64,000 bases of DNA from Belliella alkalica (GTDB taxonomy: Bacteria; Bacteroidota; Bacteroidia; Cytophagales; Cyclobacteriaceae). Below the pieces are notes generated by a model that ran no database searches, had not been told where the DNA came from, and was given only the letters and a program-made list of their open reading frames with translations. Numbering within the stretch: the first letter of the stretch is position 1; each line of letters opens with the position of its first letter. Shown here piece by piece: positions 47,047-61,743 of this stretch. Made by a program: the position numbers and the translations under genes. Location of the stretch: positions 1 through 64,000 of the forward strand of contig NZ_JAKZGO010000019.1 in NCBI RefSeq assembly GCF_022549785.1. Direction: 5' to 3'.

Positions 47047-49509
47047 CTATTTTCCTTCAGACCTTATCTCTTCGGCCATCTGTCTGATGGCTTTTTTCCG
47101 ATCTCCAAGTTTTGCCGCAAGGGTATCGAGCCTAAACTTTTCGCTTTCCTCTGTACTATAGGTCAGGTATTCCTCCAGGCTCACCTCGGTTCTGTAAACC
47201 TTGCCCACGGGGCCAAGACCGATAAACACCTCCTTGTATTTCCTTCCCGGTTCGTTTGCCTTGTTGATGGAGAGGATCTGCATCTTTTCCTTTTCTGTCA
47301 GCCCGAGCAGCTCTTGGATCTGGTGGAACTTGTTTTGGTACTTGGCCTGATCCAGCAGGATTTTACAGTCCGAGTTGTTGATGATGGCATCTTTGACAAC
47401 AGGTGAGCTGATGATGTCATCGACTTCCTGCGTGACTACGATGGCTTCACCAAAGAACTTCCGCACGGTCTTAAAGAGGTATTTGATGTATTCGGCCATC
47501 CCTTCCTTGGCAATGGCCTTCCAAGCTTCTTCGATCAGGATCATTTTTCGGATGCCCTTGAGCTTTCTCATTTTGGAAATGAAAATTTCCATGATAATGA
47601 GCGTCACTACGGGAAACAGGATGGGATGGTCTTTGATGTTATCGAGTTCAAAGACGATGAAGCGTTGTGACAGCAGATCGAGGTTTTCCTTGGCATTGAG
47701 CAGGTAATCAAACTCGCCACCTTTATGGTAGGGCCTGAGAACATACAGGAAATTGGCAAGGTCAAAATCCTTGGGATTTACCTTTTCGACTTCCAGTTGC
47801 AGGGCAAAGTCTGTCTCCAGAAAGCGGTAGAAGGTATCAAAACACGGAAACACCTCAGAATTACCATCCAGAAAATCATAGTAGGATTTCAGGGCGTTGG
47901 AGATGGCTACATATTCACTACGGGTAAATTTTTCGTCGTCTTTTTTCCAGAGTGCCAGCAAAAGTGTTTTCAGGCTTTCCTTTTTCTCTGTATCAAGCCT
48001 TTGTCCCGAAAGGAAAAAAGGATTGAATTTGATGGGTTTATCTTCCTGATAGGTAAAGTAATATCCACCTACCAAATCACAGAGCCCTTTGTAGGAATGC
48101 CCTACATCTACGAGCACTACATGCGTTCCCTGTTCATAATAGCTTCTGACCATATGGTTGGTAAAAAAGCTTTTTCCAGATCCAGAGGGTCCGAGCACAA
48201 ACTTGTTTCTGTTGGTTATCCAACCCTTTTTGATGGGCTCGTCCGATAGGTCCACCTGTATGGGATAGCCACTGATCCTGTCTCCCAGCCTGACTCCAAA
48301 CCTGCCAACCGGGGATTTGTATTGGGTTTCTGAAATAAGCAGGCAGCTTGCCGGTTCCGCAAATGAAACAAAGGATTCATTCATGGGAAATGCCGCTTCG
48401 TTGCCTGGAATCCCTGCCCAATAAAGCTGTGGTGCACCTATAGTCTCCAGTTTTGGCAAAACATCCATCTTTGAAAGTGCTGCTGAAGCAAAGTTTCTCA
48501 TATTGGCAAGCTTATTTTTGTCAGCTGTCCAACAGAGCAGGTTGAAATGTGCCGAAACAGGTGTGCTTCCTTCCCTGATTGCCTGGTTTAGGTACTCTTG
48601 GATACCGTCGGCAGCAAGGGCATTTTCCCTGCTGTAGGCGGAAAGGGAAAACAAACGCAACCTTTTTGCTTCGAGTGTCTTCATCATTTCCATCCTGTCT
48701 TGGACAAAGATGTATTGGTTATAACAATGGTCATAGGGCAATAGGCAACCGATTGGGGCTGTATAGCCGACCATAAACTGGCTTTTGTCACTGCTATATG
48801 CTTCAAATGGAGCGCTGCTGCTGATCTGATTTGGCAGTTCCTGAGTGTCTGCAATTGAAAACATGAGCGGATGTTTACCTGCAATATTCCATTCCGGATA
48901 AAACTGAATATCAGAGATCAAGGCAGCTTCTTTCTCTTGACCAAGGTTAAGTTGCAATTCTATGGGGTTTTGCTCCCCTACGAGTTGATCCCCACAGATC
49001 CGTCTGACTTCAATCCCTGCATCCCTCAGCAGCTGTGTAAACTGTCCCAAGGCTGTCTCCATATCTGATATGAAATTAGGCTGGAGAATCTGCTTTGGCA
49101 CCAGGTTGTTTCTAAGCAGGTTGGAAAGGGAGGAATCGAGCAGTTTGGTTTCAGGGTTTCTTTTGGTGAGCATCAACAGGCTTCTGTGTTTGAGTCCGGG
49201 TCTTTCATGGAAAAACAGTTCACTGGATCTATCCAGAAAGTTGTTTGGCTTTTCTAGGTCGGCATGGTAGTCCCATTTGATAAACCAATCCTGTTTGTGG
49301 AAGATGTATCCATCAGGCAGTATTTTGATGGCTTTGACAAAAGCCTCGTGCAATGCTTCCAGTTGGCTTTTGGAGCAAGTGAATACTTCCGGCAAGCCAA
49401 GTTCAAAGCATGCGGTAACATCTGCCTGTTTGGAGATGATTAGGTCATTTTCCACTGCCAAGAGTGGAAATAGGTTTTCCATTTCCCGGTCTTGTTTTTG
49501 GCTAATCAT
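47047..49509 (-). CDS. traG: Conjugation ATPase TraG (VirB4-like)
   Basis: 820 residues. VirB4-type ATPase: N-terminal part (about 1-400) with LLAVENDLIISKQADVTACF; Walker A GPSGSGKSFFTNHM near 437-450; Walker B region KMILIEEAWKAIA near 652; VTQEVDDIISSPVVKDAIIN near 692. It powers assembly of the transfer apparatus. Its start overlaps traF by 8 bases. Note that Bacteroides TraG is a VirB4 homologue, not the coupling protein. Confidence 0.95.
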   Translation of the reverse strand: MISQKQDREMENLFPLLAVENDLIISKQADVTACFELGLPEVFTCSKSQLEALHEAFVKAIKILPDGYIFHKQDWFIKWDYHADLEKPNNFLDRSSELFFHERPGLKHRSLLMLTKRNPETKLLDSSLSNLLRNNLVPKQILQPNFISDMETALGQFTQLLRDAGIEVRRICGDQLVGEQNPIELQLNLGQEKEAALISDIQFYPEWNIAGKHPLMFSIADTQELPNQISSSAPFEAYSSDKSQFMVGYTAPIGCLLPYDHCYNQYIFVQDRMEMMKTLEAKRLRLFSLSAYSRENALAADGIQEYLNQAIREGSTPVSAHFNLLCWTADKNKLANMRNFASAALSKMDVLPKLETIGAPQLYWAGIPGNEAAFPMNESFVSFAEPASCLLISETQYKSPVGRFGVRLGDRISGYPIQVDLSDEPIKKGWITNRNKFVLGPSGSGKSFFTNHMVRSYYEQGTHVVLVDVGHSYKGLCDLVGGYYFTYQEDKPIKFNPFFLSGQRLDTEKKESLKTLLLALWKKDDEKFTRSEYVAISNALKSYYDFLDGNSEVFPCFDTFYRFLETDFALQLEVEKVNPKDFDLANFLYVLRPYHKGGEFDYLLNAKENLDLLSQRFIVFELDNIKDHPILFPVVTLIIMEIFISKMRKLKGIRKMILIEEAWKAIAKEGMAEYIKYLFKTVRKFFGEAIVVTQEVDDIISSPVVKDAIINNSDCKILLDQAKYQNKFHQIQELLGLTEKEKMQILSINKANEPGRKYKEVFIGLGPVGKVYRTEVSLEEYLTYSTEESEKFRLDTLAAKLGDRKKAIRQMAEEIRSEGK

Positions 49510-50921: not shown

Positions 50922-51761
50922 TCAAAGCCCTTCACTTTCTTCCATCCATTGCAGGAGTCTTTCCTGCATGGTATCAAGGAATACTGTCCTGCTTTTTTTG
51001 CGAACCCTGATTTCCTGGAAGGTGCGGTAATAGTCTGTCAGTTTTTTGTCAAACAGCAACCCCATGGTATTGGCTATCTCTTTGATATCGGCAGTACCGT
51101 TGTTGAATACCCCAGCAGCCTTGAGTGCATAGATCAACTCTATCAGTTGAACTTTTGGGGCAGTCCAGCGGAGCTTTCTTCTTGCTTCCCCACTGAGTAC
51201 CTCTTTGTTTTCAAGTTGTTTGATTTCGTCCTTGAGCAAGTCTATCAGCTGAACCCATGAATAGGCTTTTGCCAGCAGGTAACTGTGGAGGGTATCATAT
51301 TTGGGGTTGACTAGCAGGATATCCCTATCGGGTCGAAACATGGTATTGTCGGTGTTGCGCAGAAAATAGAGCCTATCCATGCTTTCCTCATTGAGCAGTG
51401 CATAGTGGTATATATCCTTCTTTTGTTCCAGCGCCAAGGACAGGCGTTGGATGGCTTTGTTGTAGTGGCTTTTGATTATTTTTTTTCTTCCCACGGGCTT
51501 TTTGGATTCTATGTTGAAGTATTCTGCATAGAAAAAAGCCTCTTTGAGCAGTTTGGGGTTGGTATGTTTAAAAAAGGCAATCTCCTCCTGTTCGCTTTCA
51601 AAGGTATATTTGTCGAGGTAGTTTCTGAGTTTCAGCACAGCCTCCTCTGTATGGTGGAAGGCTTGTTCGAGTTGTTGGAGTTTGTTGCCGTCCTCAAGAG
51701 AAAGCATGTTCAATTCCTTTTCAAGATTCTTGATCAGGTCTTCTGTATAATCCCTTAACAT
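50922..51761 (-). CDS. rteC: RteC-like element excision/transfer regulator
   Basis: 279 residues. The central and C-terminal parts follow RteC: FFKHTNPKLLKEAFFYAEYF, KPVGRKKIIKSHYNKAIQRL, LRWTAPKVQLIELIYALKAA, GVFNNGTADIKEIANTMGLL. RteC of CTnDOT activates excision genes in response to the RteAB two-component system. No rteA or rteB is present here. The gene has its own terminator. Its presence beside traE-N identifies the block as a CTnDOT-type ICE. Confidence 0.92.
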   Translation of the reverse strand: MLRDYTEDLIKNLEKELNMLSLEDGNKLQQLEQAFHHTEEAVLKLRNYLDKYTFESEQEEIAFFKHTNPKLLKEAFFYAEYFNIESKKPVGRKKIIKSHYNKAIQRLSLALEQKKDIYHYALLNEESMDRLYFLRNTDNTMFRPDRDILLVNPKYDTLHSYLLAKAYSWVQLIDLLKDEIKQLENKEVLSGEARRKLRWTAPKVQLIELIYALKAAGVFNNGTADIKEIANTMGLLFDKKLTDYYRTFQEIRVRKKSRTVFLDTMQERLLQWMEESEGL

Positions 51762-51844: not shown

Positions 51845-53020
51845 TCAATACTTAAAGGATTTCTCAATTCGCGCAATGGTATTGGCGAGCTTTTCCTTTG
51901 GTAGGTATCTTTTGGTATCCTCCACAGACCAGGTGACCGCACCACTTACCTGAAATTTCAAGTTTTTGATCATAGAGAGGTTTAGGGAATCTTCAGGCTT
52001 GTAATTGGCTGTATAAAGTCTGATTTTGGATTCAAAGGTCCGAAGTACTTTGTCATGCCTGAGTAAAAGAGTCTGCATGGCGCCATCTTTATCCATCTTT
52101 TGATTTTCCATCAACAAGGCTACCCAATTATGAAAATCACTGATTTCAGCCTCTTTTTGGTAGGAAAGGATGTCATTGCTGATAAATATCAACTCTGCGG
52201 CAAGTTTCCTGGGAGCTTCCAGCATACCCCATGCGTATTGGATCTCCTCTGGTTTTCCATGGATACAAAGGGGTATAAGTTCAAGTGCCAACCTACCTCC
52301 TGAAAAGTAGGGTCTTTTGTTCAGGTACTCTTCCAATGGGGGAATCTTATCAAAATCCCTGTTTTTGGCTTCCCAAAGGTTTGCAACCATGTATTGTTCA
52401 ATTTCACTTTTGAGGGTATCTCTATACCATTCTGATTTCAGCATGGCAAAATCCTTCCATAGAATTTCAAACCCCCGGATAAATATGTTTTCATTCACCA
52501 AGTAAGCTTGGTAAAATGGATCCATGATGTTGCCAACTGACTCTTCCATGACAGCCCAAAACTTAAGTTTTTGACCCTTTGGCAACCTATCGGCATAATC
52601 GTCCATCAAAAAGAGCCAAGCATAGAGTTTCCCAATCCAGATACTTTTTTGAAGGGAAGCTTCGGGGTATAGCCTTGCTGCCAGATAGGTCATTTTGTTT
52701 TCCCTAAAGTTTCTGATTTGTCTGGGGCTTTCCAAGAGCTGATGGCTTTTCAGCCAAGCCACAACCTTGTTTGTGATCAAACCTGCTTCAAGGTGCAGGG
52801 AGGAGAAAAAGTCATAGTTTAGGATTTCCCCCATTTTGACTTTGGCAACAGGCGACTCTTTAATCTGGTGTAGATACTTGTTATGCCTGCTAATAGTCCT
52901 CTTGTCAACTTTGAAAAGTTGTGCCAACTGATCTGGGTTTAAGATCCTAAAGAATCCATTGAAATACCTGTTGAGCAGGGCATAGGCATCTTTGTAATGT
53001 TTTTGGGATATCAATACCAA
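51845..53020 (-). CDS. Crp-type HTH fused to class I terpene synthase
   Basis: 391 codons from a TTG; no ATG exists before residue 63. Residues about 1-55 are a Crp/Fnr C-terminal region (HYKDAYALLNRYFNGF, then LAQLFKVDKRTISRHNKYL, a helix-turn-helix). Residues about 60-391 are a bacterial class I terpene synthase: DDYAD at 140-144 (metal motif), N282-D-I-L-S286-Y-Q-K-E290 (NSE triad) and R371-Y372 near the C-terminus. All catalytic elements are intact, so it should cyclize a prenyl diphosphate. The sensor half lies in another frame just upstream (53011-53433); a one-base slip joins them. See findings. Confidence 0.85.
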   Translation of the reverse strand: MVLISQKHYKDAYALLNRYFNGFFRILNPDQLAQLFKVDKRTISRHNKYLHQIKESPVAKVKMGEILNYDFFSSLHLEAGLITNKVVAWLKSHQLLESPRQIRNFRENKMTYLAARLYPEASLQKSIWIGKLYAWLFLMDDYADRLPKGQKLKFWAVMEESVGNIMDPFYQAYLVNENIFIRGFEILWKDFAMLKSEWYRDTLKSEIEQYMVANLWEAKNRDFDKIPPLEEYLNKRPYFSGGRLALELIPLCIHGKPEEIQYAWGMLEAPRKLAAELIFISNDILSYQKEAEISDFHNWVALLMENQKMDKDGAMQTLLLRHDKVLRTFESKIRLYTANYKPEDSLNLSMIKNLKFQVSGAVTWSVEDTKRYLPKEKLANTIARIEKSFKY

Positions 53021-53433
53021 AGGTCTTCGGTATCTTTTGCTTTTTGCTGGAGGGCAAGCGATAGTCTGTTGAATTCGGGGAGTTTGTTCAATACCTTCAG
53101 TTCGTCATTGTGGGACAGCTGGGACATCAAACCATCTTTGAGTGCTATCAAATTGTATTGGCTTGGAAACCCGGACTGATAGGCATGGCTGTCGAATGCA
53201 ACTTGATCCTCAAAAAACAACCTTTCCAACATGCCTTCTTTTTCAAAGGCCAAGATCCCGCTAAACAGATAGTAGGAATATTGTTCTTTCTCCCCTGAAC
53301 TTCTGATAAGATCCCCTTTCCTGAAGGTTTTAAACTCCATGAATTCCATCAACTTTTGGTAGGCACCAAAAGGCACGACAGCCAAACCATCAAGCTTTGA
53401 CTTCAAATCAAGCATTAGTTTTTCTTTCTCCAT
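53011..53433 (-). CDS. Crp-type sensor domain, 5' part of the split Crp/terpene synthase
   Basis: 140 codons from ATG 53433. cNMP-binding-like beta-roll: YQKLMEFMEFKTFRKGDLIR, YSYYLFSGILAFEKEGMLER, FFEDQVAFDSHAYQSG, then the dimerization helix (LPEFNRLSLALQQKAKDTED). It stops at 53011 without a DNA-binding domain. The next frame begins exactly where the missing helix should continue (GACCTTTGG context). It is either a broken gene or a frame-shifted one. Canonical phosphate-binding residues for cAMP are not evident. Confidence 0.75.
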   Translation of the reverse strand: MEKEKLMLDLKSKLDGLAVVPFGAYQKLMEFMEFKTFRKGDLIRSSGEKEQYSYYLFSGILAFEKEGMLERLFFEDQVAFDSHAYQSGFPSQYNLIALKDGLMSQLSHNDELKVLNKLPEFNRLSLALQQKAKDTEDLWY

Positions 53434-53708: not shown

Positions 53709-54329
53709 TTATTTTTCATCTTTCAATCTTTTTTGTTGTCTGATGCGTTTGATTGTTGAATCGCTGAAATTGAGCAATTCAGCAATCTCCTTGACCTTGA
53801 GTGTAATTCCAGCAACCCTGTATTTGTCCAAAAATGTATCATAGCGTTTGTTGTTTTCCATGCTGAGCATCCTCGCAAATGCAGCTTCCCTACTGAACAT
53901 AAATTGATTGATGAGCGATGATAGTTTGTTGAACTCAGAGAAATTCCTAAGTAGTTTTTTCTCGTTTTTTCGATTAAGTTCAGCTAACCTCACCTTGGTA
54001 TAAGCCTGAAACCTAATGGCAGAAGGTTTCCCTGACCTGAGGGAATCCAAGTCAACGACAATATCACCTTGTTCATAAACCCTATACATTTTCCAGCTTT
54101 TTTCCCCAACCAATTGATAGGCTACCACCAAGCCTTGTAACAACAGTCTGCTTTTCGTTTCTACGAATCTAGGTGCTTTTATCTCCTGTCCAGCCAAATA
54201 AAATTGGTCTGTCAAGTGACTTAACAAACCATCGAAATTGAGGTTGTCAAGCATGATCCCATCCTTGGAAAAATAATTATTGATCTTTGTACAGCATTTA
54301 ATGATTTCATTTAAGAATTCATTCTCCAT
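53709..54329 (-). CDS. Crp/Fnr-like regulator
   Basis: 206 residues. Beta-roll-like sensor (about 25-115; FYLAGQEIKAPRFVETKSRL, MYRVYEQGDIVVDLDSLRSG), dimer helix, and a C-terminal HTH (ITLKVKEIAELLNFSDSTIK, RIRQQKRL). It resembles the regulator half of the split gene in layout but not in detail. It is divergent from the MauE gene, and two AGGGTCA boxes lie in the gap between them. It may regulate the terpene synthase, the MauE locus or both. Confidence 0.8.
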   Translation of the reverse strand: MENEFLNEIIKCCTKINNYFSKDGIMLDNLNFDGLLSHLTDQFYLAGQEIKAPRFVETKSRLLLQGLVVAYQLVGEKSWKMYRVYEQGDIVVDLDSLRSGKPSAIRFQAYTKVRLAELNRKNEKKLLRNFSEFNKLSSLINQFMFSREAAFARMLSMENNKRYDTFLDKYRVAGITLKVKEIAELLNFSDSTIKRIRQQKRLKDEK

Positions 54330-54401
54330 ATGAATGTTTATGTTTCATTCGTGCCAAAAATTAGTGGCATTCTTTTTAAAATCAAATCCAAGAAGTCATT
54401 T

Positions 54402-54417
54402 AGGGTCAAATGGACTT
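54402..54417. repeat. AGGGTCA box 1
   Basis: AGGGTCAAATGGACTT, exact match to box 2. In the gap between the Crp-like regulator and the mauE-like gene. Confidence 0.6.
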
Positions 54418-54437
54418 AAATTAAGGACATTGAATAT

Positions 54438-54453
54438 AGGGTCAAATGGACTT
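54438..54453. repeat. AGGGTCA box 2
   Basis: AGGGTCAAATGGACTT, identical to box 1 and 36 bases further. It is 33 bases upstream of the MauE-like start. Confidence 0.6.
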
Positions 54454-54485
54454 TCCACAATTGAAGCATCCGCATATTTTTGGCG

Positions 54486-54929
54486 ATGCGAAAATCCACA
54501 ATCAAATTTCTCGAAATCATCAATGAAGGCTATTCCTGGCTTCTGATCATTCTTTTTGGTTATACAGCCATCAATAAGCTTATCGATTGGGAGCATACCC
54601 GGGCTTCACTGTACAATCAGGTCTTCCCAATTTGGCTATCGGAAATCATCCTTTATCTCATCCCATTCTTGGAACTCCTAACAGTAATCCTGTTGATCCT
54701 TCCAAGGACAAGAAGACAGGGCTTGGTAATCAGCATCTTATTGATGCTTGCTTTTACAATTTATATAAGCTTGGTTTTGACCAATATTTTTGGAAGGATT
54801 CCATGTTCCTGTGGTGGGGTCCTCAACCAATTGGGGTGGACAGAGCACTTATTTTTCAACCTGCTTTTCTTGGGTATTGCGCTCTTGGGCTACCATACCC
54901 ATCACCTGATTGGAAAACAAAGTGGTTGA
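54486..54929 (+). CDS. MauE/DoxX-like redox-associated membrane protein
   Basis: 147 residues from ATG 54486. Four membrane helices (about 14-34, 50-72, 77-98, 120-140) and a conserved cytosol-edge motif IPCSCGGVLNQLGW with a C-x-C-G-G core, the hallmark of Bacteroidota MauE proteins. MauE family members help form or maintain disulfides in partner proteins, as in methylamine dehydrogenase maturation. It precedes a small DUF6520-like exported protein on the same strand. A TlpA-like thioredoxin is at the far end of the cluster. Confidence 0.85.
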   Translation: MRKSTIKFLEIINEGYSWLLIILFGYTAINKLIDWEHTRASLYNQVFPIWLSEIILYLIPFLELLTVILLILPRTRRQGLVISILLMLAFTIYISLVLTNIFGRIPCSCGGVLNQLGWTEHLFFNLLFLGIALLGYHTHHLIGKQSG

Positions 54930-55023
54930 TTAAACACCGACCCTTGATGAACCCCAAATCACAGGGGAGGTTCGATAAATTCGATCCATACCCCCATAAA
55001 ACCAACTCACCTAACTATTTGCA

Positions 55024-55039
55024 AGGGTCAAATGACCCT
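55024..55039. repeat. AGGGTCA box 3 (palindromic)
   Basis: AGGGTCAAATGACCCT: an AGGGTCA half-site facing its own reverse complement, so a full palindrome with a two-base centre. 95 bases after the MauE-like stop. Confidence 0.6.
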
Positions 55040-55060
55040 ATGTTTTTCAGAAAAACCGAA

Positions 55061-55077
55061 AGGGTCATTTGGACTTT
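55061..55077. repeat. AGGGTCA box 4
   Basis: AGGGTCATTTGGACTTT, differing from boxes 1 and 2 at two central bases. 37 bases after box 3. Confidence 0.6.
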
Positions 55078-55506
55078 CCCATATAAATGAAGATTTGGAA
55101 ATTAGCACCATGCAAACGAGGAAAAGGAAAAAAATAAACCAAATTCCCAGAAGCATCAAGGCTATCAACATTTAGGAAGGATGTTGAGAAATTAAATTAA
55201 TAGACAACAAAAGCAACAATTGAATCAAAGTTAAATGATAATAAATTCAGTAGTCAGGTTGGGTAATTCGGTTTCATCATGTACCCTATGGGCAGTAAGG
55301 ACAAAGCTATCAAATATGGGTAAGCTGTTAAACTAAATAAGAAAAGAAGAAGATAATCGGTCTGTGAAGCTACCAGGTAGTTGCCAGACAAAAGCAGGGG
55401 GGGGTAAAAAACCGGCCGCCCCTCTCAAAAGGCTAACCTACTTCCCCCGGCAGGGAAGCAAGCCAAAACGACCGGCATTAATTACTAACAATTAATTTAC
55501 AAAATT

Positions 55507-55776
55507 ATGAAACTTTCAGTATCTAGCCTTCTACGTGGAGGCATATTTACACTTGCTGCCGTATTTGCTTTTGCATTTACGCAGCCAACAACTCAAATGG
55601 GCTATGCTCCTATCTTTGACGATGAAGATCCTTCCAGAGTAGTTGGATGGATTGATGCATCCACACTTCAGATAGGTGTTGACTATGTCTGCAATCCAGA
55701 AACCATACCTTGTTTGTATGAAGAAGAGGATCTCAATTCTGATGCCGTAAGCTTTGGAGAGTTTGAGCTTTTGTAA
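55507..55776 (+). CDS. Small exported Cys-pair protein, DUF6520-like
   Basis: 89 residues. Signal peptide or membrane segment (GGIFTLAAVFAFAFTQPTTQ), then a short mature part with YVCNPETIPCLYEEEDL, two cysteines six apart, and an acidic tail. This layout is that of DUF6520-type small Bacteroidota proteins, which commonly occur beside MauE/DoxX genes. The Cys pair is a likely target of the MauE-like protein and the TlpA-like thioredoxin nearby. A bidirectional terminator follows. Role unknown. Confidence 0.78.
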   Translation: MKLSVSSLLRGGIFTLAAVFAFAFTQPTTQMGYAPIFDDEDPSRVVGWIDASTLQIGVDYVCNPETIPCLYEEEDLNSDAVSFGEFELL

Positions 55777-55782
55777 AATTTT

Positions 55783-55803
55783 GGGCAGGTCAAAAACCTG
55801 CCC
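55783..55803. terminator. Bidirectional terminator between convergent genes
   Basis: Arms GGGCAGGT (55783-55790) and ACCTGCCC (55796-55803), five-base loop, AAAATTTT on the left and ATTTTG on the right. It sits between the DUF6520-like gene (plus) and SusD (minus). Confidence 0.85.
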
Positions 55804-55810
55804 ATTTTGT

Positions 55811-57160
55811 TTATCTTTGATTTTGTTGAATGCCGCTTTGATTAATCTCTTGAGGTGGAATTGGGAATACATATCTTGGAGAATTTGGCTCCAATACATA
55901 CTCAGTTCCAAAAACCACTCTCCTAAGTGTTTGCTCTAGTCCAGGTTCAGTATTTAATCTTTTCAAATCTGCCCATCTAATTCCTCTGAATAATAATTCC
56001 TTTCTTCTTTCTTTTAATACAAGTTGTAATAAAGATTCTCCTTGTTGATTTTCTATTCCATCAAATGAACCAACTCTATATCTTTTTGCCAATAAGGTGT
56101 TCAACTGTTCAATTCCTTGAATTTCTTCTCCTAATCTAACCAAACATTCTGCTCTATTAAGCATAACTTCATTATTAGCCAAGCCAGTAAAAAAAAAGAT
56201 ACCACCTGTATAGTTCCCCAAGAAATTGATTCCAAATCCTCTATTTCTGAAAAAAACTTCCTTTCTTAAATCCCCATCAGCATACATTTCATAGATTTCG
56301 GGATTCACAAATGAAAGTGTGCTTGAGTTCCAAGAGTAAGCTAACATTTGATTGAAAAAAATTATTTCAGGGTTTTCAAGATTGAAGGAAAACAAAGATG
56401 AGGTTTGAACATTGTTATAATCCAAAAGTTCATCATCGATACCCAGTGCCAAATCAGCAAATTCCAAAGACCTTTGATAGTTCTTTAAATATAAATGAAC
56501 TCTAGAAAGCATGGCATAAGCAGCTCTTTTTGAAGGCCGTGTCATGAAGTCATAGTTTTCTGGTAAATAAAGTACTGCTCCTTCTAAATCCTCAATAATT
56601 CTCTCAAATGTTTCACTAAGTTCAGCTCTAGCAATAGGTTCATTTATATCAGGGGACAGTTTGAGTGGAAGACCAAGTTTTGTGGTATTGTTAAGATTAT
56701 TGTCAGGATGATCAGTAAAACAAATAGCTAAGTTATAGTAGGCAAAAGCTCTGTAAAATAATGCCCTTCCTTCGATTACCTTTTTTCTTTCTTCTTCATC
56801 TTGATTGATCGAATTGTAATTGTTCAATCCCTCTAAGACTATGTTTGCATAAAATATCTGAAGGTATGGGGTTGACCAATCTAATCCTAAATTTTCAAAA
56901 ATCTCTTCACTCCAAATGTAGGCATTTTGTTCAATGATGTTTCTAAACCCGGTAAATCCATTGTCTGTTGTCACAAAATCATCAGAGGATATTTGATGAA
57001 CTCCTGGGGATTCGTTCATTCCTCTTGGTGAGGCATCAAGTAATGCTTGAAGTTCATCCAATGTTTCAGGGATCACAATGTTTTTGTTCGGTCTTTCATC
57101 AAGAAAATCAGCACAACTGCTCAATATGACGACTATAGTTATATATGTTAACTTTTTCAT
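55811..57160 (-). CDS. SusD/RagB-family lipoprotein
   Basis: 449 residues with a lipoprotein signal ending ILSSC (Cys 16), followed by ADFLDERPNKNI. SusD features: RALFYRAFAYYNLAICFTDH, RAELSETFERIIEDLEGAVL, NEVMLNRAECLVRLGEEIQG, VLKERRKELLFRGIRWADLK. It is shorter than most carbohydrate SusDs and resembles those paired with peptide-type SusC and thioredoxin genes. It forms a pair with the SusC gene 17 bases upstream. Confidence 0.93.
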   Translation of the reverse strand: MKKLTYITIVVILSSCADFLDERPNKNIVIPETLDELQALLDASPRGMNESPGVHQISSDDFVTTDNGFTGFRNIIEQNAYIWSEEIFENLGLDWSTPYLQIFYANIVLEGLNNYNSINQDEEERKKVIEGRALFYRAFAYYNLAICFTDHPDNNLNNTTKLGLPLKLSPDINEPIARAELSETFERIIEDLEGAVLYLPENYDFMTRPSKRAAYAMLSRVHLYLKNYQRSLEFADLALGIDDELLDYNNVQTSSLFSFNLENPEIIFFNQMLAYSWNSSTLSFVNPEIYEMYADGDLRKEVFFRNRGFGINFLGNYTGGIFFFTGLANNEVMLNRAECLVRLGEEIQGIEQLNTLLAKRYRVGSFDGIENQQGESLLQLVLKERRKELLFRGIRWADLKRLNTEPGLEQTLRRVVFGTEYVLEPNSPRYVFPIPPQEINQSGIQQNQR

Positions 57161-57177
57161 TTCAAATTCATTTTAAA

Positions 57178-60100
57178 TTATAAATCTATTCTTACTCCAA
57201 AAGCAAAACTTTTCAGTGGCCTCATAGTCCTAAAATCTGGGTCAATCGGCAAATCTGTATGCTTCCATAACAGTCCTAGATTGTTTACAAAGGCATAAAG
57301 CTCTAGCCTATTGAAACCTTTTATTTCATCGAAGAGGTACGAGACCCTTACATCTTGTAACCTGATATGATCTCCCCTTTCCACCAGTATTTCTGAATAA
57401 CGGTACATATTATCCCGATTTGCATTAAGTCCTAAGGGCATGGAAGGTACTTGGGTGCTCAATTCATCCCCTGGATTTCTCCATCTGTTCCCAAAATCTT
57501 CATGACCTAGGTCTCCATTGAATAGGCTGTTGTAAAGGATTGAACTCCTTCTGAATACATGGCCAAATCTGTAAGTGATATTAGCGGAAAGGCTAAAACC
57601 TTTATAGGAAAAATTATTTGAAACAGTTCCCACAGAAGTAGGTCGAGCCGACCCATTGAAAATGATAGACTCAGGCGTAGCTTCATTGAAAATGGCAGTA
57701 TAGTTATCACTAGGTTCGCCATCGAGCATTCCCATTGGGTTTCCATTATCTGGGTTCAAGCCTCCCCATGGGTAAGAGTAAACAGAAAAGAGAGGTCTTC
57801 CTTCAAATGGAAAAATTAAATCTGAACCCCCAGCAAATGCCAAATAGTTTGATACTGATGCTTGTGTTTCATAACCTGTTACTCGGTCTCTTACATGATT
57901 GTAAATCAATGAAGCATCCCATCTAATCGCCCTTTGCACGATTTTTCCTCTGATGATCATGTCCAAACCTTGTGTCTTTGAACTGGCAAAATTCCCTCTG
58001 TAAGTAAGCACACCTGATGATGGCGCCATAGGAATTGTCCCGAAAAGATCAACTCCGTTTTTGATGTAGTATTCAAAGGAGCCAGACAAACGTCCTGATT
58101 TTGATTCGAAATCCAAACCGAAATTGGTCATCTGAATCTGCTCCCAGCGAAGATTTTCATTTGGAGGATTTAAAACCTGGGCATATGGAAGCCTTGAGAC
58201 TGGATTAAAATTGCCCTGCATCGCAGATGCTGTAGTAAATGCTGTTACTGTTCTATCAATATTTCCACTAAATCCATAAGTACCTCTTAGTTTTAAATAT
58301 GGTACTGCCACCCAGCTATAAAAACCCTCTTCACTAAGTATCCAAGCCAAACCTGTAGACCAAAGCGGTACTGCCCTTTGATTGGCCCTGACACCAAAAA
58401 GGTTGGAAGCATCATTCCTTGCGCTAGCTGAAAATATGTATTTCTTGTCATAAGTGTATGAAGCATTGGCAAAGGCTGAGACAAAACGATCTATGCTTCC
58501 CGAGTGGCCTCCACCATAAGGGATGTTTGCTAATCTATTGTTGTGAAAAGTCCTAAACCTGGTGAAGTAGTCGACATTTTCAGAGTTGGCAAATCGCTCA
58601 GAATAGCCATAGTATCGAATGCGATCAGTATTTGATGTCCAATCTTTGAGTTCTCCCCCACCTAATGCAGATACTTGGTGCTTTCCAATCTTCTTATTGT
58701 AAGTTAATTGTGCTCTTACAGTATGGCTTTTTGCAAAGATATCTGACTTGTTATAGATTGCTCCTATAGGAATTGCCCTGCTTAGTTGCCCATCTGGCTC
58801 GACTTGTGTAAAGCGATTGATCAAATCCCTTACTTCGAATGTTTCCTGAGAGACTATCTCTTTGTTGTTGGCGGCATTCTGCCAGTATTGATATTGTAGG
58901 TCTAGTTTGAGATCCTTGCTGACCTTATATTGCAAAGCCATATTTGCCCTTAGGTCTGTATTCTGCTGTCTATCGTTTCTCATCCCAATTTCCTCAATAG
59001 GTACAAAAGTCCAATCAAGCAAGAATGGATTGTCTAGACCTTGGATGTACCTTTTAGAGAGCCCTTGGATCACTGGTAAGGCATTGCCTGCTTCGTCAGC
59101 CAGTCGATCATATGGGAAGAGATCTGGCAATTTGGTGGTCTCCACATTATTTCTTTGGGCATAATAAACTCCTAGATTAAGTGTAAGTCGATCATTTGCA
59201 AGGTTCCATGTATTTTGGGTAGATAATGTTATTCTGTCATTTTTGTTTCCTACTATACTAGCCCTATTTTGATCATAGCCCAATGATACAACATATTGAT
59301 GCGTAGCAGTCCCTCCACTCAATGATGCTGAGTGTTGCTGATTGATTTGGGGTTGGTAGAAATGTCTATTCAGTTCACTCCTGGTATCGATACTTTGGAG
59401 TGCTGCCAATCTCTCATCATATTCTCCCTGTGAGATTATCCCATCTCGAAGCTGTATCATCAGTTCCACCCCTGGAGAGAGTGTTTGCCTGTCTATGCTA
59501 ACTTCTCTGGATTGATAAAACCCTCGGTCAAATAGTGTCCTTTCTACTCCGATAAAGTCTGAAATTTCCATCCTAGGGGCATAAAATAAATCTGGAGCCT
59601 CTATGAAGTTGGTATTGGTGTTGAAACTGAATTTCGGCTTGGTTGCAGCTTGCCCTTTTTTGGTGGTAATGACAATGACGCCATTACCAGCTCTTGCTCC
59701 CCAAATAGAGGCTGCCGCTGCATCTCTAAGTACGGTGATAGACTCTACATCATTGGGATTGATGCTTTCCAATGGCCCATCATAAGGGAAATTGTCAATC
59801 ACAATCAAAGGATTGGCATTCGCTGATATGGTGGATCTACCCCTGATGCTGATTGGGTCTCCACCTCCTGTTCGGTTAAATACCAGCCCGGGAGTCACAT
59901 CTTCAAGTCTATCCAAAAGATTGGTAGATATTCGGCGATTGAGGAGTTCATTATCAACTTGAGCAAATGAGCCCGTAGCTCTTTCCTTGGGCAATTCCTC
60001 ATAACCTGTGGAAACAATTTCAAAAGCTTCCATACTAAATCCTTCCTCCTTTAGATAAATTTGGATAGGTTCAGAAATAGGAACAGAAATAGTTTTCTCT

Positions 60101-60357
60101 ACAGTAGCATAACCCAAGTAGGATACTCTCAAAACAATATCCCCTGATGGAAGATTGAGTTCAAACACACCTTCTTCATCCGTTACAACTCCCCTGCTAC
60201 TTCCTTTGAGGATGACCATTGCGCCAGGGACGGCTTCTTGGTTTTCAGTGTTTACCTTCCCTGTTACGGAATAAGTGGATTGTGCTTTTAGCTGCTGGAT
60301 GCTAAGAAATAGCAATATGCAGATAAGTGAATATTTGATAAATTGTTTACTGTACAT
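57178..60357 (-). CDS. SusC/RagA TonB-linked outer-membrane transporter, no STN domain
   Basis: 1059 residues. Signal ending LKAQ, CPD-like domain about 28-105 (TGKVNTENQEAVPGAMVILK), then FEIVSTGYEELPKERATGSF, which is the version of the TonB-box region seen in the STGYQxLPKERATGSF subgroup. Plug with LRDAAAASIWGARAGNGVIV, then the barrel. This subgroup is frequently accompanied by TlpA-like thioredoxins, as here (84-base gap upstream). The ligand is unknown; peptides are more likely than glycans (inference). Confidence 0.94.
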   Translation of the reverse strand: MYSKQFIKYSLICILLFLSIQQLKAQSTYSVTGKVNTENQEAVPGAMVILKGSSRGVVTDEEGVFELNLPSGDIVLRVSYLGYATVEKTISVPISEPIQIYLKEEGFSMEAFEIVSTGYEELPKERATGSFAQVDNELLNRRISTNLLDRLEDVTPGLVFNRTGGGDPISIRGRSTISANANPLIVIDNFPYDGPLESINPNDVESITVLRDAAAASIWGARAGNGVIVITTKKGQAATKPKFSFNTNTNFIEAPDLFYAPRMEISDFIGVERTLFDRGFYQSREVSIDRQTLSPGVELMIQLRDGIISQGEYDERLAALQSIDTRSELNRHFYQPQINQQHSASLSGGTATHQYVVSLGYDQNRASIVGNKNDRITLSTQNTWNLANDRLTLNLGVYYAQRNNVETTKLPDLFPYDRLADEAGNALPVIQGLSKRYIQGLDNPFLLDWTFVPIEEIGMRNDRQQNTDLRANMALQYKVSKDLKLDLQYQYWQNAANNKEIVSQETFEVRDLINRFTQVEPDGQLSRAIPIGAIYNKSDIFAKSHTVRAQLTYNKKIGKHQVSALGGGELKDWTSNTDRIRYYGYSERFANSENVDYFTRFRTFHNNRLANIPYGGGHSGSIDRFVSAFANASYTYDKKYIFSASARNDASNLFGVRANQRAVPLWSTGLAWILSEEGFYSWVAVPYLKLRGTYGFSGNIDRTVTAFTTASAMQGNFNPVSRLPYAQVLNPPNENLRWEQIQMTNFGLDFESKSGRLSGSFEYYIKNGVDLFGTIPMAPSSGVLTYRGNFASSKTQGLDMIIRGKIVQRAIRWDASLIYNHVRDRVTGYETQASVSNYLAFAGGSDLIFPFEGRPLFSVYSYPWGGLNPDNGNPMGMLDGEPSDNYTAIFNEATPESIIFNGSARPTSVGTVSNNFSYKGFSLSANITYRFGHVFRRSSILYNSLFNGDLGHEDFGNRWRNPGDELSTQVPSMPLGLNANRDNMYRYSEILVERGDHIRLQDVRVSYLFDEIKGFNRLELYAFVNNLGLLWKHTDLPIDPDFRTMRPLKSFAFGVRIDL

Positions 60358-60441
60358 GTTTGGTCATAATATTTGGTTGGTTTTTAATTATTGATGAGTA
60401 AGAATTCCTTTCCCATTTAGGAAAGTACCAGACGCATTAAC

Positions 60442-61743
60442 TTATTGGTTAGATTGAATATGAAGGACATCAATTTCCACGTCCTTTTCGACTAACTTCA
60501 AATTGTAAATAGCCAATGCCTTTTGTAAATCTTCCAGGTTAAAAAGATTGCCTTCAAGTCGAAGGTCAATTGGAAAGTCTATGCCTGTTTGGTTGATTAC
60601 CGGTCTGGGATACCTATTCAGGTTTTTGATATTGAGAAGGCTGATGAACGATTCAATTTCACAATATTCCATAATCAACTCGGTGAAACCTGCCTTATTG
60701 ACTCTTAAATTTTTGTTAGACTTTAGATGATTAATATTTTCACCTTCATAAATCAGCGCATACACAGGCCAATTAGCTTGTTCAATTCTGACTTTGTATT
60801 CTGGAAATAGTAGGTCCAAAGCATTTTCAATTATCTGATCTCTCTTTGGGAGTAAAAATTGTGGAATGATAAATTCCACATTATGTCCATTTCCATCATT
60901 CAACCAATTCAAGAATTGAGTACCACTATACCCAGGCTTAAGTTTTTCTTGAACTGCCAAGTCCATTTTTATTCTATTAGTTCCAAAAAATCTCTCATTT
61001 GGCTTATCCCAATATGCATATGAGAATATATTTATCAAGGGCATATTGACTAAAGATATCACCAGTGGCTTATCATCGATTCCCCAATTCACTTTAGCAA
61101 AGAGATCTATTCCTGCAACATAGGGTGATTTGGAAATTTGAAATTCAAGAACATCTTTGAATACTTCTGAATTTTCTAAAAATATTGGTGTGGTAGCATT
61201 AAAGCTAATTTCCTCATAAACCTTGTTCTCGAAATTGATTTCGCCATTATCAATGTAGCTTTTGATATTTTCTGCGGTAACATCCTTTCCTTCAGAGATA
61301 CCTACTACTTCACTATCTCCATTGACCCAAACATAATTCGGCAATGACTTATGGGGGAGCATTCTTCTTAGAATATTATCCCCATACACCATAGGCTTTT
61401 TGATATCCTTCAGCTTAGCCATACGTGAAAAGAGCTTTTCTACTTCTTCCTTGTCTTGATAAGTCACAGGAAGGATGGCCAGGTCATCACCGAAAGCCTT
61501 ATCCAAACTATCAAGCTTCGGAAAAGAAGCCACACAGGGAGCACACCAAGTCGCCCAGAAATCAAGGATCAATAATTTGCCTTTGAAGTCAGAGATCAAT
61601 ATTTCACCAGAAGAATGGTTCAAAACATTGTCAAATTTGAGATTGGGAATCTTGTCTCCTATGTCTAAAGGCTCAAGTTTCTGCTGTCCTAAAGCATAAA
61701 TAGACAGCAGCAAGGCAATCAGTAATGTTATTTGTTTCTTCAT
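60442..61743 (-). CDS. TlpA-like periplasmic thioredoxin with extra C-terminal domain
   Basis: 433 residues with a signal peptide ending ALGQ. The thioredoxin domain covers about 25-175: KGKLLILDFWATWCAPCVAS with active-site C67-A-P-C70, then ILPVTYQDKEEVEKLF. The remaining 250 residues are not thioredoxin; they contain FWNxGNGHNVEF-like and DLRLEGNLFNLEDLQKAL stretches, similar in pattern to secretin/TonB short-N or STN modules. It is the first gene of a transcript with SusC and SusD. It should reduce or shuffle disulfides of a periplasmic ligand or peptide. Confidence 0.88.
   Translation of the reverse strand: MKKQITLLIALLLSIYALGQQKLEPLDIGDKIPNLKFDNVLNHSSGEILISDFKGKLLILDFWATWCAPCVASFPKLDSLDKAFGDDLAILPVTYQDKEEVEKLFSRMAKLKDIKKPMVYGDNILRRMLPHKSLPNYVWVNGDSEVVGISEGKDVTAENIKSYIDNGEINFENKVYEEISFNATTPIFLENSEVFKDVLEFQISKSPYVAGIDLFAKVNWGIDDKPLVISLVNMPLINIFSYAYWDKPNERFFGTNRIKMDLAVQEKLKPGYSGTQFLNWLNDGNGHNVEFIIPQFLLPKRDQIIENALDLLFPEYKVRIEQANWPVYALIYEGENINHLKSNKNLRVNKAGFTELIMEYCEIESFISLLNIKNLNRYPRPVINQTGIDFPIDLRLEGNLFNLEDLQKALAIYNLKLVEKDVEIDVLHIQSNQ

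Follow-up and report, generated by a model that had tools for sequence, protein, structure and literature searches.

Does a Crp-like sensor that stops short of its DNA-binding helices, and is followed at once in the -1 frame by those helices and a terpene synthase, represent an accidental reading, two genes, or one fused gene whose frame has been broken? The question is raised by a gene at 53433–51845 on the minus strand of a 64,000-nucleotide stretch of Belliella alkalica DNA (contig NZ_JAKZGO010000019.1, positions 1 to 64,000), which was analysed as a whole and is referred to below as the window.

A Crp-like sensor and a terpene synthase in two overlapping frames

The Crp-like sensor and the class I terpene synthase are encoded in two overlapping frames, with the following features:

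53011–53433, minus strand: N-terminal half, Crp-like sensor of 140 aa with a premature stop (ORF; PF00027 E-value 0.0033, under the Pfam cut-off; profile positions 1–140; Crp fold predicted in an intact relative)
53011–53020, minus strand: overlap of both frames, 10 nt, and the frame break relative to intact relatives
51845–53020, minus strand: C-terminal half in the -1 frame, 391 aa, Crp helix, HTH and class I terpene synthase (PF19086, 1.3e-30 in the Pfam scan)
52865–52951, minus strand: HTH region including the recognition helix KRTISR (52886–52903)
52589–52603, minus strand: DDxxD metal motif, DDYAD
52295–52315, minus strand: RPYFSGG, with an Arg 46 residues before the NSE motif that we take to be the diphosphate sensor
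52151–52177, minus strand: NSE motif, NDILSYQKE
51899–51913, minus strand: KRYLP with the RY pair

The sensor frame runs from an ATG at 53433 to a stop after ...KDTEDLWY at 53011. This stop and the -1 frame of the synthase, as well as DDYAD, NDILSYQKE and the RY pair, had been reported in a first-pass annotation of the locus; the frames and ends were confirmed by an ORF check and all three motifs were located at the positions given above. The joined protein of approximately 530 residues that was envisaged there fits the closest relatives, which are 527 aa long. By sequence, the window synthase has the features of class I enzymes (DDxxD, NSE and RY together with the PF19086 match), and an alpha-helical class I fold is predicted in an intact relative. 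The Ala of its DDYAD is replaced by Thr in all 19 relatives of the seven-genus set described below.

Intact one-frame relatives and their distribution

Searches for homologues, as the first-pass annotation had proposed, returned 32 distinct intact fusions in a single frame, 509–554 aa in length with one of 472 aa (distinctness was judged by the last 250 residues, and the count leaves out the broken window copy). The existence of such intact relatives rules out an accidental reading of the HTH and makes the fusion a family, found in aquatic bacteria: a predicted Crp-type regulator fused ahead of a predicted class I terpene synthase is a real family. A chance reading of the HTH was rejected, as the same junction is read through in one frame by 32 relatives, the recognition-helix T and R are invariant and a Crp fold is predicted. 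The invariance holds in the 19-row alignment and in seven further rows that lack the catalytic motifs, and the fusion of genome G608 has K in place of the R. DDxxD, NSE and RY are all kept in 23 of the 32 fusions and are all absent from the remaining nine.

For the survey of genomes, a fusion profile was built from five same-genus fusions and applied with a threshold of 1e-15. In the genus sample, six of eight genomes (that of the window included) had a match, and five of the seven others carried sensor, HTH and synthase in one open frame of 515–527 aa. The family sample gave matches in 34 of 295 genomes, with matches to one half counted; sensor and synthase were in one frame in 24 of the 295, 17 with and seven without the catalytic motifs. 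Matches in the order sample (21 of 390 genomes, adding two fused genomes, G608 and G613) and in the class sample (2/395) all belonged to the family of the window. All 32 fusions likewise came from this family among the genomes sampled, an absence elsewhere that is soft, as few candidates were scored per genome and the samples overlap.

The scan of genome contigs gave no match with a single-protein query; with an alignment as the query it recovered 19 loci, each with one fused frame, from Belliella, Anditalea, Cecembia, Mongoliibacter, Litoribacter, Arthrospiribacter and Algoriphagus. Six of these seven genera are assigned by the NCBI taxonomy to Cyclobacteriaceae and Anditalea to Cytophagaceae; the Anditalea fusion (G051, same sequence) is placed in the family of the window by the genome collection.

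Predicted fold and domain scores

The intact fusion of B. aquatica, encoded at L057 6001–7584, was modelled with AlphaFold2 from the 19 rows (pLDDT 89.4, pTM 0.77). The best Foldseek match of its synthase part was T-muurolol synthase (9hqd; TM 0.88 by target length, 25% identity), and the best 50 Foldseek rows for the fusion were all terpene synthases. The N-terminal 201 aa, modelled alone (pLDDT 89.3, pTM 0.82), matched full-length Crp regulators. The predicted model of this intact relative thus has sensor, dimer helix and C-terminal HTH in one chain, the HTH of the window copy lying on the other frame.

Profile scores for the regulatory part were lower. PF00027 matched 7 of the 19 fusions at 0.01 and was below the cut-off in both the window and B. 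aquatica; HTH_Crp_2 matched one of seven motif-less fusions, at 0.095, and none of the 19 seven-genus fusions at 0.01. Terpene synthase, cNMP and HTH families were the only ones found at 0.01 in the Pfam scan of the 19 fusions, and the HK97 capsid family that accompanies the cNMP domain in family 2B encapsulins was not found in that scan. The best NCBIfam score of the B. aquatica fusion was 98.9 of 500 bits, far below the cut-offs for named synthases.

The two-gene form

Besides the fusions, 22 loci were found in which a Crp gene (189–220 aa) lies upstream and on the same strand of a stand-alone synthase of 297–328 aa. These are 22 of the 25 stand-alone synthase matches, fetched with wide flanks; G259 C51, G608 C2 and G613 C14 were left out. 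The two genes overlap by 4–17 nt in seven loci, are 1–197 nt apart in 12 and approximately 1.43 kb apart in three, and the two-gene form coexists with the fusion in some genomes (G001, G007). A Crp gene with its own HTH next to a separate synthase is what the first-pass annotation had named as the case against a fusion; it does exist, in these 22 loci, but the fusions are set apart from it by a well-supported branch. Fused and separate forms were split at 97/100 in the synthase tree (15 separate rows, four outside rows) and at 98 in the Crp tree (14 separate rows); when distant Crp rows were added to the latter, the fusions no longer formed one side of a branch. The root of the fused/separate trees is not fixed, so the direction, fusion or fission, is not readable from them.

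Frame break in the window copy

Across the junction, intact Belliella relatives read (D/E)LW(V/L)(L/M)ISQKHY, whereas in the window one frame ends as DLWY-stop and the second reads LVLISQKHY. In a comparison with four intact Belliella relatives, the Trp of DLW/ELW is retained in all four and is followed by (V/L)(L/M)ISQKHY, which places the slip after this Trp and not in the CTTT run where the missing base had been sought earlier. The comparison shows the window copy as an apparent frame-broken member of the family, its frame differing by one base at a point between the dimer helix of the Crp part and the HTH, unless the assembly is in error.

Apart from the break, the copy looks maintained, given that its catalytic signatures are present, gap blocks are few (one relative to G002, none relative to G001, G006 and G005), codon third positions differ most in both pieces of the gene, and the synthase branch measures 0.23, vs 0.15 and 0.21 in intact sisters. 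Its C-terminal half shares 73% identity with the fusion of G001 and 76% with that of G002. In the comparison with G006, conservation along the gene is highest in the HTH, with an identity of 0.69 against 0.56 in the synthase and 0.42 in the sensor. For the intact pair G002/G001, dN/dS was 0.090; most relatives are so far from the window that dS is saturated, which leaves dN/dS against the window mostly undefined, and codon positions were compared instead.

We conclude that the break is either a recent lesion or an assembly error. That the gene is in fact intact and the break a sequencing or assembly artefact seems somewhat unlikely: it would agree with this being the sole interruption of the frame in the gene, and with the presence of an intact fusion in five of the seven other genomes of the genus and of a broken one in none, but the run at the junction is short (CTTTGG) and would be an improbable site for a base-calling slip. 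Still less do we expect the window copy to be unbroken in the cell, its two overlapping ORFs being translation-coupled and giving two cooperating proteins. Such a pair could be produced if the synthase frame started at TTG 53020 within the overlap, or at an alternative ATG at 52834, yielding a synthase of 329 aa, similar to the stand-alone ones; overlapping genes do occur in the seven two-gene loci mentioned above, and both pieces look constrained. The Crp genes of all 22 two-gene loci are, however, long enough to hold the HTH, whereas the cut in the window precedes it, and a recent lesion explains constraint over the whole divergence equally well. Programmed -1 frameshifting, which the first-pass annotation had raised as 'one gene that shifts frame', was rejected, and we give almost no credence to a full-length protein made in this way; a short overlap in the -1 frame would suit it, but not one of the 32 distinct relatives needs a shift, and a canonical slippery heptamer was not seen by eye at the window junction.

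The motif-less branch

Within the fused side of the synthase tree, seven motif-less fusions of one genus group as a nested clade (100/100); L117, the eighth motif-less fusion of this genus, was left out of the tree. The seven aligned rows are without DDxxD, NSE and RY and keep R-x-x-F-S, an Asn 46 residues on, and the T and R of the HTH. Values of dN/dS in this clade were below 1. For the synthase part of three motif-less pairs, dN and dS were 0.169/0.649 and 0.274/2.659, with dN of 0.36 and saturated dS in the third, and in two of the three pairs this part was under weaker constraint than the sensor. In all three pairs the synthase part thus has a dN clearly lower than its dS, which speaks for a domain kept for a non-catalytic function.

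The ninth motif-less fusion, a second one from Anditalea (L111, 5060–6478), is the 472-aa protein and has a strongly degenerate synthase domain without any motif. Its branch was too long to be placed in the tree, and its loss of the motifs is possibly independent.

The MauE-peptide-SusD-SusC neighbourhood

The genes on either side of the window fusion are as follows:

50922–51761, minus strand: RteC-family gene, downstream of the fusion (PF09357, 4.2e-65)
53709–54329, minus strand: second Crp-like gene, upstream, 206 aa (weak PF00027 and HTH matches; seed of the second-Crp profile)
54480–54929, plus strand: MauE membrane protein, divergent (PF07291, 1.4e-31)
55507–55776, plus strand: small two-Cys peptide of 89 aa whose N-terminus is hydrophobic (family alignment of 52 rows; no Pfam match at 0.01)
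55811–57160, minus strand: SusD (PF14322, 2e-30)
57178–60357, minus strand: SusC-type TonB-dependent receptor (PF13715, PF07715)
60442–61743, minus strand: TlpA/thioredoxin-like protein (PF00578, PF13905)

The same neighbours recur beside fused, motif-less (one genus) and two-gene loci as well as in the window. A divergent MauE gene accompanies 24 of the 25 fused rows (in which one locus appears twice, as L128 and L074), all eight motif-less rows and all 22 two-gene loci, and adjoins 31 of the 32 distinct fusions. The corresponding counts were 21/25, 7/8 and 20/22 for the small peptide, 22/25, 7/8 and 20/22 for SusD, and 22/25, 7/8 and 21/22 for SusC; some of the misses fall at contig ends, and the neighbour profiles were made from few seeds of the same loci, with Pfam checks on a subset. 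TlpA was present in some loci whose fetched stretch reached far enough. RteC follows 14 of the 25 fused rows, five of the eight motif-less rows and the window fusion. Beside the intact fusion of G002, the MauE module was not seen within the 19 kb fetched; there an IS66 transposase gene ends 15 nt before the second Crp gene, at that boundary (L158, 11171–13119).

The module, TlpA-SusC-SusD-two-Cys peptide-MauE with a divergent Crp-like gene, is present in three copies in the genome of the window (window 53709–61743, L093 and L094). The two further copies have a plain Crp gene on the same side, adjoining MauE in contig C84 and approximately 2.6 kb off in C1. Among 17 small-MauE modules from eight Belliella genomes, five were accompanied by the fusion (window included), three by the two-gene form and five by a Crp-like gene without a synthase; for the other four, of which one lies at a contig end, the fetched stretch gave no Crp match. 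The window peptide, with its hydrophobic N-terminus and YxC...C, looks like a secreted one and is perhaps disulfide-bonded.

Genes for conjugation, such as those of a TraG ATPase and relaxases, were found close to the window copy (TraG, 47047–49509), L057, L067 and the C84 module (L093). Because these genes and RteC are found nearby, it is suggested that the modules travel on mobile elements.

A palindrome, TGTATCAATTATACA, was read off the alignment of six Algoriphagus loci (L067, 5723–5737, and L068–L072), where it lies in the conserved block between MauE and the fusion and is a candidate operator. It occurred in only those six of the 64 regions scanned, and a loose pattern was also found in 64 of 6400 shuffled regions; a repeat search gave nothing common to the other loci, and no shared operator was found.

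Proposed function of the fusion

As a whole, these data are probably best explained by a module regulator with an attached terpene cyclase, similar to trigger enzymes. Judging by its position, the fusion would act first as a local regulator of the adjacent MauE-peptide-SusD-SusC module, and the plain Crp genes beside the paralogous modules presumably regulate those. In most members, with the motifs in 23 of 32, the synthase domain most probably cyclises a prenyl diphosphate, and the Crp dimer may link its substrate binding or turnover to the binding of DNA, in the manner of PutA and other trigger enzymes; in the one branch in which the catalytic residues are gone, the domain could serve only as a sensor or scaffold. 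The architecture, the conservation of the motifs and the gene positions are shown directly and the fold is a prediction, whereas DNA binding by the HTH, regulation of the divergent module by the fusion, and its control through the binding or turnover of prenyl diphosphate are inferences. A more far-reaching version, which we put forward tentatively, is that a terpene-synthase fold has become what a one-component transcription factor uses as its sensory domain. The Crp-synthase fusion would then read the prenyl diphosphate or terpene state and set the expression of MauE, peptide and SusCD, as an active enzyme at first and as a catalytically dead sensor in one branch.

It is also conceivable, if in our view unlikely, that the enzyme is primary, the Crp part being only a ligand-sensing, dimerising regulator of the cyclase with an HTH that no longer binds DNA, and the terpene being the output of the module. 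Retention of the three catalytic motifs in most fusions would fit, as would the cyclic-nucleotide-binding genes that flank 2-MIB cyclase genes in cyanobacteria (PMC3072421) and the pairing of cNMP domains with terpene cyclases in family 2B encapsulins (PMC8346489), as far as the sections of these papers used here describe them. Against it stand the HTH itself, which has diverged least between the window and its Belliella relatives and has an invariant T and R in the 19 and the seven motif-less rows (K for R in G608), and the plain Crp genes on the same side of paralogous modules.

Relation to known systems

Crp/Fnr regulators such as MtbCRP (3i54) and that of P. gingivalis (2gau) resemble the first approximately 200 residues of the fusion, where a sensor, a long helix and an HTH are predicted, and differ from it by the enzyme domain of about 310 residues that follows the HTH here. 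Bacterial class I terpene synthases (9hqd; isoafricanol synthase, NF041624) share with it the predicted fold and the DDxxD, NSE and RY motifs, but the synthase is here fused to a regulator, and the motifs are missing in nine fused members. The enzymes of PutA, BirA and NadR are unrelated to terpene synthases. These trigger enzymes nevertheless share with the fusion the combination of an enzyme with an acquired DNA-binding domain, as outlined in the part of PMC8249747 drawn on here, and regulation by the substrate would apply to the fusion only by inference. In family 2B encapsulin operons and cyanobacterial cnb-mtf-mic operons, according to the portions of PMC8346489 and PMC3072421 consulted, a cNMP-type domain is likewise genetically tied to a terpene cyclase, but as separate proteins (capsid or cnb gene), whereas here a single polypeptide includes an HTH. 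A further paper, PMC12205151, deals with carotenoid genes only in the part available.

No description of a Crp-terpene synthase fusion was found in searches of open-licence full texts. To our knowledge, no terpene synthase has previously been known as a covalent part of a regulator of the DNA-binding type, and the present one, if the reading is true, would be the first. The natural one-gene, two-gene and motif-less forms offer a way to test when an enzyme becomes a sensor, and the link of these synthases to an uncharacterised two-Cys peptide/MauE/SusCD module gives those found here a first genomic context.

Terpene synthases outside the family

In the phylum sample, PF19086 matched in 5 of 395 genomes, three of them outside the family of the window. 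The outside-family synthase ORFs (three of six loci viewed) were 334–377 aa long and unfused. At one outside locus (L077, 2664–3239), a 191-aa ORF that is Crp-like by eye lies near two tandem terpene synthase genes, and a looser link between Crp-like proteins and terpene synthases may exist elsewhere in the phylum.
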